A stretch of 64,000 bases of DNA from Marinomonas profundi (GTDB lineage Bacteria > Pseudomonadota > Gammaproteobacteria > Pseudomonadales > Marinomonadaceae). Location: NCBI RefSeq assembly GCF_020694005.1, contig NZ_CP073013.1:2366578-2430577 (forward strand), read 5' to 3'. Every line of letters begins with the position of its first letter. Within the stretch, counting starts at the first letter, position 1. This document shows positions 4,432 to 61,719 of the stretch, one piece after another. The position numbers and the translations under genes are program-made. A model generated the notes under the pieces. That model made no database searches. It saw only the letters and a program-made list of their open reading frames with translations, and was not told the origin of the DNA.

Positions 4432-6771
4432 ATGATCGTTTTATCGGTTCTATTTTTTGTCATGGGTATCGCGTTGCTGCTGGGTGGTGGCTGGCTGGTG
4501 TCTCTCGATGGCAGTTATTATTATGCAATAGCGGGGGTGGCATTGATTGCGGTGGCTTTGTTGTTACGAAAACGTAATACAGTAGCCAATGTCATTTATG
4601 CTGTTTTGTTGGTCGGTACATTGGTTTGGTCGATTAGCGAGTCCGGTTTAAGCTGGTGGTCTTTGGCGACGCGTATGGGCTTGTTTTTAGTATTAGCCAT
4701 CCCTTTGTTGTTGTTTGCTTTGAGCAAACAGCGTGGTGGATTAAGTATTTTATTTCCGGCTTGGGTGGTGACAGCGTTAGTCACTCTTTCCCCTTTGTTT
4801 ATGATATCACCAAGCACGATAGAAGGTGAGTTAACGCGTTCTGTTACTGTGTCGAATGCCGATCTGGGCGACGTTGATCAAGAAGATTGGAATGCTTATG
4901 GACGCAGTAATTTAGGACAACGCTTTTCACCTTTGAGCCAAATTACGCCAGATAACGTGAATCAACTTCAGTTGGCATGGCAATATCAGACCGGCGATAA
5001 GAAAGGGCCGAAGGATATTGGTGAGACAACCTACGAAGCGACACCATTAAAATTGGGCAATGCGCTTTATGTTTGTACACCACATAATTGGGTTGTGGCG
5101 TTAGACGCCGACAGTGGTGAAGAAAAATGGGTATACGATGCCAAAGTGCCTGCAGATAGCCAGCGTCAACATCAGACTTGTCGAGGCGTCTCTTATTTAC
5201 CGCCGTCCGGTACAGATACGCTTCCGCCCGTTCAAACCGCGTCGGTTCCTGCTGAGAGCTTAAACAGTATGCAGTGTGATGCGCAGTTGTTTTTACCAAC
5301 GTCTGACGCACGCCTAATTGCCGTGGACCCAACAACCGGGGCGCGTTGTGCTAACTTTGCAGAAAATGGTGTGTTGGATTTAATGCACAATATGCCGTTT
5401 AAACAGTCGGGCTATTATTATTCTACTTCGCCACCACTGGTTGCCGGTGGTGTGGTGATTGTCTCTGGGTCTGTTAATGATAACTACGATATCAACTCTC
5501 CCTCTGGCGTGATTCGCGCTTATGATGTGAAAACAGGGGCGTTAAAGTGGAATTGGGATTCTGGCAATCCTGATGATACGGCTCCATTGGGGGCAGATGA
5601 GGTTTATGCGACAAGCTCACCAAACAGTTGGTCGGTGGCCAGTGCGGATGAAGCGTTGGGATTAGCGTATTTTCCGATGGGAAATCGTACACCGGATCAG
5701 CTTGGCATGTACCGTTCTCCAGCGGAAGAGAAGTACGCCACTTCTGTTGTCGCCTTGAGTTTGGATACAGGTGGCGTCGCTTGGGTACAGCAGTTTGTTC
5801 ATCATGATTTATGGGATATGGACACCCCGGCTCAACCTTCTTTATTAGATTTAGATACGCCATCAGGTAGGCAGCCAGCTTTGGTTGTGCCAACCAAGCA
5901 AGGTGATGTCTACGTGTTGAACCGAGCAACCGGTGAGCCTATTTTCCCGATTACCGAAGAGCCAGCACCACAAGGTGCTATTCCTGGAGATTATACGGCG
6001 AAAACGCAACCTACCTCGGCGTTGTCCTTTAAACCGGCCGATCTAACCGAAGCGGACATGTGGGGGGCGACGCCATTGGATCAACTACTGTGTCGTATTG
6101 AGTTTAAACAATTACGTTATGAGGGACGCTATACGCCGCCATCAGAGCAGGGTTCGATTGTTTATCCTGGCAATTTTGGCGTATTTAACTGGGGAAGTAT
6201 TGCGGTCGACCCCAAACGTCAACAAATGTTTGGCATGCCCTTGTATTTGGCATTTACCTCTACCTTGGTGGCAAAAGAAGGCTTGGACTTAAGTGAATCT
6301 AATAAAGGGGAGCAAGGTGTTAATGCAAATGAAGGGGCCGAGTTTGCCGTTCAGTTGCAACCTTTCTTATCTCCTCTAGGCGTACCTTGTCAGCAACCGC
6401 CGTGGGGTTATGTGGCTGGTGTGGACCTTAAAACGGGTAAAACAGCGTGGCAGCATAAAAACGGCACTATCGAAGATATGACGCCCTTTAAATTACCCGT
6501 CAGAATAGGCGTGCCAGGTATTGGTGGCCCGATTATTACGGATGGTGGCGTCGTTTTCATGGCGGCATCGGTTGATGATTATCTGCGCGCTTATGATTTA
6601 TCCAATGGCAAAGAATTATGGAAAGGCCGTTTGCCAGCGGGCGGACAAGCGACGCCAATGACCTACTTAAACAGCAAAGGCGAGCAAATGGTTGTTCAAG
6701 TGGCTGGGGGGCATGGCTCTATTGGTACGACCATTGGCGATTATGTCGTGGCTTATAAACTTAAAAAGTAA
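4432..6771 (+). CDS. gcd: Membrane-bound PQQ-dependent glucose dehydrogenase
   Basis: The 779-residue protein matches the usual length (about 796) of membrane quinoprotein glucose dehydrogenase. Residues 1-130 are hydrophobic with about five membrane segments; the rest is a PQQ beta-propeller starting DWNAYGRSNLGQRFSPLSQI. Visible key residues include the His/Cys segment QHQTCRGVSY, the Asp of HHDLWDMDTPAQ and the Lys of VVPTKQGDVYVLN, which correspond to the PQQ/Ca-binding and catalytic sites of the E. coli enzyme. It oxidises glucose and other aldoses to lactones in the periplasm and passes electrons to ubiquinone. No pqq biosynthesis genes lie in this window, so cofactor supply must come from elsewhere. 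The gene stands alone; AAGGA precedes the ATG. Relation to glk-zwf-eda at 48.9-52 kb is functional only. Confidence 0.92.
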   Translation: MIVLSVLFFVMGIALLLGGGWLVSLDGSYYYAIAGVALIAVALLLRKRNTVANVIYAVLLVGTLVWSISESGLSWWSLATRMGLFLVLAIPLLLFALSKQRGGLSILFPAWVVTALVTLSPLFMISPSTIEGELTRSVTVSNADLGDVDQEDWNAYGRSNLGQRFSPLSQITPDNVNQLQLAWQYQTGDKKGPKDIGETTYEATPLKLGNALYVCTPHNWVVALDADSGEEKWVYDAKVPADSQRQHQTCRGVSYLPPSGTDTLPPVQTASVPAESLNSMQCDAQLFLPTSDARLIAVDPTTGARCANFAENGVLDLMHNMPFKQSGYYYSTSPPLVAGGVVIVSGSVNDNYDINSPSGVIRAYDVKTGALKWNWDSGNPDDTAPLGADEVYATSSPNSWSVASADEALGLAYFPMGNRTPDQLGMYRSPAEEKYATSVVALSLDTGGVAWVQQFVHHDLWDMDTPAQPSLLDLDTPSGRQPALVVPTKQGDVYVLNRATGEPIFPITEEPAPQGAIPGDYTAKTQPTSALSFKPADLTEADMWGATPLDQLLCRIEFKQLRYEGRYTPPSEQGSIVYPGNFGVFNWGSIAVDPKRQQMFGMPLYLAFTSTLVAKEGLDLSESNKGEQGVNANEGAEFAVQLQPFLSPLGVPCQQPPWGYVAGVDLKTGKTAWQHKNGTIEDMTPFKLPVRIGVPGIGGPIITDGGVVFMAASVDDYLRAYDLSNGKELWKGRLPAGGQATPMTYLNSKGEQMVVQVAGGHGSIGTTIGDYVVAYKLKK

Positions 6772-6822
6772 CTTTTTTACAGTTCTTTTTTATCGATTAG
6801 CTATTTTATAGAGAGACTGTCT

Positions 6823-7016
6823 TTAATCTCTTTGGGTTTAATTCCCCGCAGCTTGCTGCGTAAATAGCTAAAATCCAGCGTTGTCATTCCCGCGAAGGCG
6901 GGAACCCAGTAAAGTGTCTAAATAAGGTTATTTTCGATGACCGTAAGGGCTTGATTCCCGCCTTCGCGGGAATGACACACTGATACCTCGCCCCTTGGGG
7001 CGGAGTTATTCATTAA
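6823..7016. repeat. Dispersed inverted repeat element, copy 1
   Basis: From 6823 the sequence TTAATCTCTT, then CCCCGCAGCTTGCTGCG, TAAATA-CTAAAATC, a hairpin arm ATTCCCGCGAAGGCGGGA, GTCTAAATAAG and TTTTGATGA-like bases match a second copy at 60492-60616 in the same order. Copy 1 continues into a near-exact inverted copy of the hairpin arm (TTCCCGCCTTCGCGGGAATGAC, about 6953-6975) and ends at CGCCCCTTGGGGCGGAGTTATTCATT (to about 7016). The whole can fold into one long hairpin. No open frame is coded. It resembles a MITE- or REP-type element placed downstream of a gene (gcd). Confidence 0.75.
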
Positions 7017-60494: not shown

Positions 60495-60616
60495 TCTCTT
60501 AGAGTAAATCCCCGCCGCTTGCTGCGTAAATAACTAAAATCTAGCTATCCAGCTTTGTTATTCCCGCGAAAGCGGGAGCCCAGAGGCGTTGTCTAAATAA
60601 GCGTATTTTTGATGAC
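60492..60616. repeat. Dispersed repeat element, copy 2
   Basis: TTAATCTCTT, CCCCGCCGCTTGCTGCG, TAAATAACTAAAATC, the hairpin ATTCCCGCGAAAGCGGGAG, GTCTAAATAAG and TTTTTGATGAC follow the same order as copy 1 (6823-6940). It fills the whole gap between the convergent folB and cca genes and ends in the cca stop. The inverted second half of copy 1 is missing here. Confidence 0.75.
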
Positions 60617-61719
60617 TAAAAGGGTGAACAAATAAGTGGTGATGGCGTGTTATCGAGGGCATCGGCGCGTTTCTTTTTGAGTGCCTGACCAAGCTCAGGG
60701 CCAGTTAAGCCTTGCTTTATTAGGCTTGCTGCATTGATGCTGGCAATGGTATCTCGGAGTAACAGCCAGTCTTCACTTGTGCTGTTGGTAAGCCGTGTTA
60801 AAACCTCAATCAATAACACAAAGGGTTGTGGTTTTTTGATGGCGTTGACCGATGCTAGCCAGTTTTCCCATTGTGTTGCATGCATTGGAATCTGTTGGTT
60901 TTCTAGAAATCCTCGCGCTTGCTCAGCCAGTGTCTTGAATTGTTTTGGGCTGCGTATATGTTGGTGTAGCGATGCGAGCTCAGCCAGTGGCGTATGTTGG
61001 CAGAGGATGGCCCAGCGTTGGGCGGGGGTGAGTTCGGCCTGTTTTAGAACGTCTATATTGGCTTGGTTTTCTATCCAAACAAACCCTGGGAAGAGCGTGT
61101 TTAAGGCATTGGCTTTTTTTAATGTCGAAAAGAAAACATCCGCATGGCGAGTGTTGAGGGCTTTTTCGAGCTCTTTCCAAATACGTTCTGCGCTTAATGT
61201 GGACAGCTCGCCGGAGGCGCTAATGGTTTGCATTAAAGACAAGGTTTCGGGTGCGATGCTGAAGTCAAACTCATGGAAGCGAGCCGCAAAACGAGCCACG
61301 CGCAGTACGCGTAACGGATCTTCGACAAAGGCATCCGAGACATGACGAAATACGCGGCTGAGTAAATCTTGTTGACCATGAAAAGGGTCGACAAGACAGC
61401 CATTTCCATCTTGTGCAATGGCGTTGATGGTGAGGTCTCGCCGTTCTAAATCTTCTTCTAGGCGAATATCGGGGGAGAAATCACAAATAAACCCAGTGTA
61501 GCCTTCACCTTGTTTTTTTTCTTTGCGGGCAAGGGCGTACTCTTCTCTGCTTTTGGGGTGTAGAAAGACGGGAAATTGTTTGCCGACTTGTTGGTAGCCT
61601 TGTTGCTCAAGTTGTTCTGGTGTCGCCCCAGTCACGACCCAGTCGTGATCAATGACGGGTAAACCGAGTAGGGCGTCCCTTACCGCTCCGCCCACCAGAT
61701 AGGTTTGATATGCTGACAT
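60616..61719 (-). CDS. cca: CCA-adding tRNA nucleotidyltransferase (without HD domain)
   Basis: The 367-residue protein has the nucleotidyltransferase head [25 protein letters not shown] with the catalytic Asp pair (DHD), the [10 protein letters not shown] motif and the body [20 protein letters not shown]. At 367 residues it lacks the HD phosphohydrolase domain of the E. coli enzyme (412), like pseudomonad CCA enzymes. It repairs or adds the 3' CCA of tRNA. It is 4 bases after glpE. Confidence 0.93.

Follow-up and report, generated by a model that had tools for sequence, protein, structure and literature searches.

The repeat that occurs twice in the window (the whole 64,000-nucleotide stretch of Marinomonas profundi DNA analysed here) is very probably a non-autonomous member of the IS200/IS605 group, of the kind described as PATEs (palindrome-associated transposable elements), which would be mobilised as single-stranded DNA in trans by a Y1 (HUH) TnpA transposase. 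This reading is carried by the observed ends, target, copy number, insertion polymorphism and orientation of the copies, and by the exact boundaries of copy 1 with its missing target duplication. By the published mechanism of the family, TnpA supplied in trans would recognise the left-end (LE) and right-end (RE) subterminal hairpins on single-stranded DNA and excise the element strand as a circle; in the lagging-strand template the circle would then insert on the 3′ side of TTAAT, leaving the target unduplicated. The family is known in kind (PATE, IS200 group) and the member itself is new; no title or abstract opening in the literature searched describes it, which is no proof of absence.

Structure and insertion sites of the window copies

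Several of the features proposed in a first-pass annotation are present as described. The four conserved blocks occur in both window copies in the same order (Table 1), the second, inverted hairpin of copy 1 forms an arm pair of 28 nt with 93% complementarity, and both copies lie directly downstream of genes. Copy 1 starts 56 bp past the stop codon of the ORF at 4432–6771, and the TTAAT target of copy 2 overlaps a stop codon, immediately 3′ of which the copy starts. Within the window the 18-nt hairpin core has three matches versus 0.09 expected (0 of 100 shuffles reach three), and GTCTAAATAAG by itself is close to chance, with three matches versus 0.98 expected at one mismatch and 6 of 100 shuffles reaching three. 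The single-stranded DNA fold of copy 1 (z = -6.2 versus 200 shuffles) contains the LE hairpin, a long pairing between the two REPs, and the RE hairpin.

Table 1. Features of the two window copies (coordinates are those of the window).
Feature	Coordinates	Strand	Basis
Target TTTAAT	6822..6827	+	In the empty site; other end without duplicate; gap-free G049 alignment
Copy 1, complete 187-bp non-autonomous IS200-type element (very probable PATE), CTCTTTGGG...TTATTCATT	6828..7014	+	Empty sites in relatives; 26 genome loci
LE hairpin CGCAG-CTTG-CTGCG	6847..6860	+	DNA fold; stem co-varies in 116 left ends; same in the G031 IS200-type IS
CGTC-type REP: TGTC tag, 8-bp stem, 4-nt loop, CCA tail	6882..6908	+	Sequence; definition as given in PMC3733652
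Spacer with GTCTAAATAAG (6916–6926), separating two inverted REPs	6909..6949	+	Layout shared by five G038 loci
Second CGTC-type REP, inverted (dimer, tags outside, HH type)	6950..6977	-	Arm pairing; dimer types as given in PMC3733652
RE hairpin CGCCCCTTGGGGCG	6989..7002	+	DNA fold; RE model R2; IS200-type RE in G031
Right terminal motif TTCATT, the last bases of the element	7009..7014	+	Compared copies; empty site
Copy 2, truncated: LE, one CGTC REP (core 60561–60578), GTCTAAATAAG (60591–60601)	60496..60622	+	RE lost; right limit approximate; absent in 8/8 aligned relatives

The flanks of copy 1, when joined, give a gap-free match to an empty site in the relative G049 (...CTGTCTTTAAT|AAGTTACAAC...), so that copy 1 extends from 6828 to 7014, lies 3′ of TTTAAT, and was inserted without target duplication. 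The repeat reported at 6823–7016 is thus real but has different exact limits, and the suggested check for target duplications yields none at this site, the one site where the proof is gap-free. Usable rows were obtained for five relatives (G049, G056, G046, G018 and G053; a sixth row, G006, was left out as unusable), and all five lack copy 1; copy 2 is absent in all eight aligned relatives, the relatives in both cases coming from a search of 20 chosen genomes. A further copy, located between genes that we take by recognition to be pepP-like and ubiH-like, is absent in 16 of 16 aligned relatives (44 of 47 genomes had a match, and 30 loci were fetched). TTAAT lies directly 5′ of LE in 15 of 18 left ends, and two of the remaining three are truncated; insertion 3′ of a fixed short target in these flanks, with no duplication at copy 1, is as in PATEs. 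The first-pass annotation held that only two genomic copies, or no insertion polymorphism among relatives, would speak against a dispersed family; 26 loci were counted, and empty sites occur in relatives.

Copy number, ends and candidate transposases

The 3.65-Mb genome contains 26 loci after BLAST and model matches are merged, in line with the expectation of many per genome: 11 are two-ended (including a single-hairpin fusion at 2212195), nine have LE only and six have RE only. BLAST of copy 1 against the genome returned many partial copies, in separate left and right parts. Covariance models of the left end (R1; 18 own-genome matches) and right end (R2; 17 matches) were built mostly from these BLAST-found copies and so re-find them by construction; they added one locus (3615079–3615159), and two truncated left ends (656549 and 2762960) come from BLAST only. 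A hairpin-only row (2329819) and rows with E > 0.01 that lack a model match were excluded from the count. The two-ended copies that were measured span 404, 401, 350, 331, 238, 187, 170, 169, 79 and 43 bp, the last being a single-hairpin form, and this range leaves no room for a transposase gene, as in PATEs. Among 48 genomes of the genus, the own genome included, LE is found in 16 at E ≤ 0.1 (10 at E ≤ 0.001) and RE has a match in 11. Copy 1 matches four plasmid records, none over more than 50% of the query, and has no match among phage records.

The ends correspond to those of an autonomous element in another family of the same order. In genome G031 the left end of copy 1 is repeated at many contig edges, and two complete IS copies of ~0.6 kb encode a 156-aa TnpA (Pfam Y1_Tnp PF01797, E 4.9e-37) between ends that match those of the element (LE AATCTCTACGGGTCATATTCCCCGCAGCTTGCTGCG and RE GATACCCCGCAGCTTGCTGCGGGGTAGTTCATT). 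As in PATEs, the palindromes near the ends of the element thus resemble those of an IS200/IS605 transposon, and in complete copies LE and RE form two unlike hairpins rather than a matching pair of terminal repeats.

Record titles and a pattern scan of named genomes place the left-end motif in many phyla. The scan gave at least 117 loci, and the classification, made at first for 80 of them, covers all 117. Among the 117 matches listed, 14 have TnpA downstream (three of these with a recognised RE, 529–616 bp from LE), 16 have LE and RE within 400 bp without TnpA, 59 have a left end only by the rules applied, 18 are cut by a contig end, and 10 are single-hairpin fusions of 46–48 nt counted from AAT (L273, L274, L282, L285, L327, L331, L346, L359, L382 and L389). 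The 5-bp LE stem is perfect in 95 of 116 left ends among the matches listed, versus 35.0 on average and at most 48 over 500 re-pairings; the stem keeps pairing through sequence changes.

A search of the own genome for a transposase with matching ends, which the first-pass annotation had also suggested, found no such tnpA. Of two own-genome PF01797 matches, one has its own inverted repeats and the other lies near GTAG-type repeats. None of the 29 further PF01797 loci examined in the genus, a part of those with a match, has an LE-like sequence in the fetched stretch at up to four errors, and three have an RE-like pattern without LE. The copies would therefore depend on a trans-acting or lost transposase, and the family is probably stalled in its own genome since no tnpA with these ends was found there.

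The surroundings of the two resident Y1 genes were recorded. A 233-aa Y1 transposase, TIRYT-like by description (L051:1310–2190), is flanked by GGGGTCAGATGAAAAT-type (GGGGTCAGATG-type) inverted repeats; a GGGGTCAGAT inverted repeat also adjoins a G018 copy (L065, L200). Near-identical GTAG-type repeat blocks (L052:100–200 and 1960–2080) flank a stretch with a 177-aa RAYT-like gene.

Internal REPs and a nested second element

The CCCGCGAA-GCGGGA hairpin, first taken as the REP-like part of the repeat, is indeed a CGTC-type palindrome, but it is internal cargo and not an element end. The stretch at 6882–6908 fits the CGTC-1 REP description in every part given in Table 1. Two inverted CGTC-type hairpins surround the GTCTAAATAAG spacer in copy 1 and in copy 826638, and copy 1066604 has a single hairpin; the two-hairpin layout is present in five of seven G038 loci and missing in two, and one of two G018 loci has it, the other having a single hairpin. 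Of these layouts, the one with two hairpins is probably ancestral.

Neither a general link between these ends and CGTC hairpins nor confinement of the hairpins to PATEs holds. Among the 117 left-end loci listed, one has a CGTC hairpin within 300 bp (background 0 of 1400 windows around the first 80), so REP cargo is no general trait of these ends. Six CGTC-hairpin motif matches fall in four PATEs, but four split hairpins lie outside listed PATEs in the sampled stretches, and relatives have outside hairpins too. It is possible, though rather doubtful, that IS200-type ends serve as a vehicle for the CGTC REP or REP dimer and that deletions from hairpin to hairpin reduce PATEs to single-hairpin repeats; if true, this would provide a route from an IS to a REP-like palindrome, with PATEs as the carriers of CGTC-type REPs.

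A second element is nested in the CGTC-hairpin loop of 11 copies (433053, 678643, 871236, 1123949, 2180510, 2705535, 2762960, 2920386, 2938259, 3077599 and 3182482). These come from a loose search for the AGGTTGTCGCTAAACGA repeat near the 26 loci, which gave 13 left matches; the other two (746974 and 2222376) lie in flanking sequence and look like chance. Four nested elements with both sides have a 6-bp CGAAGG/CCTTCG duplication, perfect at 1123949 and 3077599 and with one mismatch at 433053 and 871236, and several contain GTAG-type TTGTAGGTCG palindromes. The strict nested-repeat motif has nine matches in the genome samples, six of them at a split hairpin, and four of those six lie outside listed PATEs (360711, 1450177, 2521162 and 3340861, where a AGGTTGTCGCTAAACGA-like repeat adjoins CGTC-like hairpin halves); the hairpin itself therefore looks like the target of the nested repeat. 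In G006 (L068), tandem GGGAATGACGGGGATACGC units lie next to CRISPR-array-like repeats (GCCGAATAGGCGGCTTAGAAA).

Orientation, alternative explanations and known systems

The LE-to-RE strand lies on the lagging-strand template in 24 of 26 copies (binomial 1.0e-5; Fisher 9.5e-6): the left replichore has 12 copies, every one of them minus, and the right replichore has 12 on the plus and two on the minus strand (2180510 and 3182482). dnaA is at 1,696,647, and GC skew (40 samples of 20 kb) stays below zero as far as 1.62 Mb, is above zero between 1.71 and 3.33 Mb, almost vanishes at 3.42 Mb and is below zero again at 3.60 Mb, which places the origin at about 1.69 Mb and the terminus at about 3.42 Mb. 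This bias is expected for single-strand (Y1) transposition but is partly confounded by gene direction, since in 22 of 26 copies the long ORF that lies closest on the LE side (genes being taken as long ORFs by a simple rule) is co-oriented. Against the leading-strand share of long ORFs (250 of 428 in 39 samples) the orientation p weakens to 1.6e-4. Four copies lie beside lagging-strand ORFs, and their orientation agrees with the replichore in three cases and with the gene in one; a further copy, 2180510, agrees with neither.

The same co-orientation is what would be seen if the repeat were a currently immobile, transcribed 3′-end module, a terminator or mRNA stabiliser selected downstream of genes, and the strong fold and a sub-threshold Rfam match of Wolbachia WsnRNA46 over the REP dimer (40.6 versus 65.3 bits, resting largely on the hairpins) point the same way. 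Such a module is nonetheless unlikely: orthologous sites are empty in aligned relatives, 15 of 26 loci are one-ended, and beyond the end of copy 1 comes another inverted repeat, which has a T-run. Spread of a REP/REPIN family by the resident RAYT-like (L052) or TIRYT-like (L051) gene would account for the CGTC-type core, and both Y1 genes are present in the genome. This is improbable, however, because the repeats around L052 are of GTAG type and those around L051 are GGGGTCAGATG-type inverted repeats, neither of which are the element ends, and because complete copies have distinct LE and RE where REPs are single hairpins. A GTAG REP/RAYT system has a GTAG tag at the foot of the hairpin and a RAYT gene with the repeat on its flanks; here LE and RE lack the tag and the L052 flanks differ.

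A MITE is bounded by terminal inverted repeats and, as a rule, by a target duplication. The original label of a MITE/REP-like family holds insofar as the repeat is dispersed, mobile, present in more than two copies and polymorphic in insertion, and it is also short and non-coding with inverted hairpins inside, as a classical MITE mobilised by a DDE transposon would be. The name MITE does not hold: copy 1 has no target duplication, the ends are subterminal IS200-type hairpins that differ from each other, and they match a Y1 transposon. The copy 1 empty site and the want of terminal repeats and duplication are the grounds for rejecting such an origin for the outer element, and a DDE-type MITE is accordingly a most improbable reading. 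As a non-autonomous IS200/IS605 member, the family offers a natural record of single-strand transposition, with empty sites, exact limits, a strand bias and a size series from 404 to 43 bp, in a genome that yielded no matching transposase.

Among known systems, the IS200/IS605 insertion sequences have a hairpin at LE and at RE, insert 3′ of a short target that is not duplicated, and show a lagging-strand-template bias, as described in PMC7290912 and PMC6006769, although among its own 22 Halanaerobium tnpA copies PMC7290912 reports that no such bias is seen; unlike them, the present element has neither tnpA nor tnpB and measures 43–404 bp where both ends are measured. The internal hairpins resemble Neisseria dRS3/RS units (NIMEs; ATTCCC(N8)GGGAAT as given in PMC3898611), here arranged as two inverted units with a spacer between them, and copy 1 matches an N. 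gonorrhoeae unit at 73% over 94 nt (E 2e-5), a match resting largely on the hairpins; homology of the spacer to Neisseria was rejected, as by itself it has no match in the plasmid collection. The hairpins are like CGTC-1 REPs in their tag, 8-bp ATTCCCGC stem, loop, tail and head-head dimer, and differ from those of PMC3733652 in being housed in a mobile element. The account in PMC3733652 reports no dedicated transposase for CGTC REPs, and for REPs whose spread has no known transposase the element is a testable carrier.

The closest likeness is to PATEs, which PMC3119063 describes as having near-terminal palindromes related to those of IS605-type transposons, without inverted termini, duplication or space for a transposase. 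Those of Haloquadratum walsbyi share with the present family the subterminal palindromes, the lack of terminal inverted repeats and duplication, the small size that leaves no coding capacity, the terminal-only forms, which measure 52 bp in the same account, and the small elements that sit inside their palindromes. Unlike them, the present elements are bacterial, with IS200-group ends seen across many phyla, and often carry a CGTC-type REP, single or as a dimer, as internal cargo. All testable PATE features fit the element family, for which mobilisation in trans is predicted.
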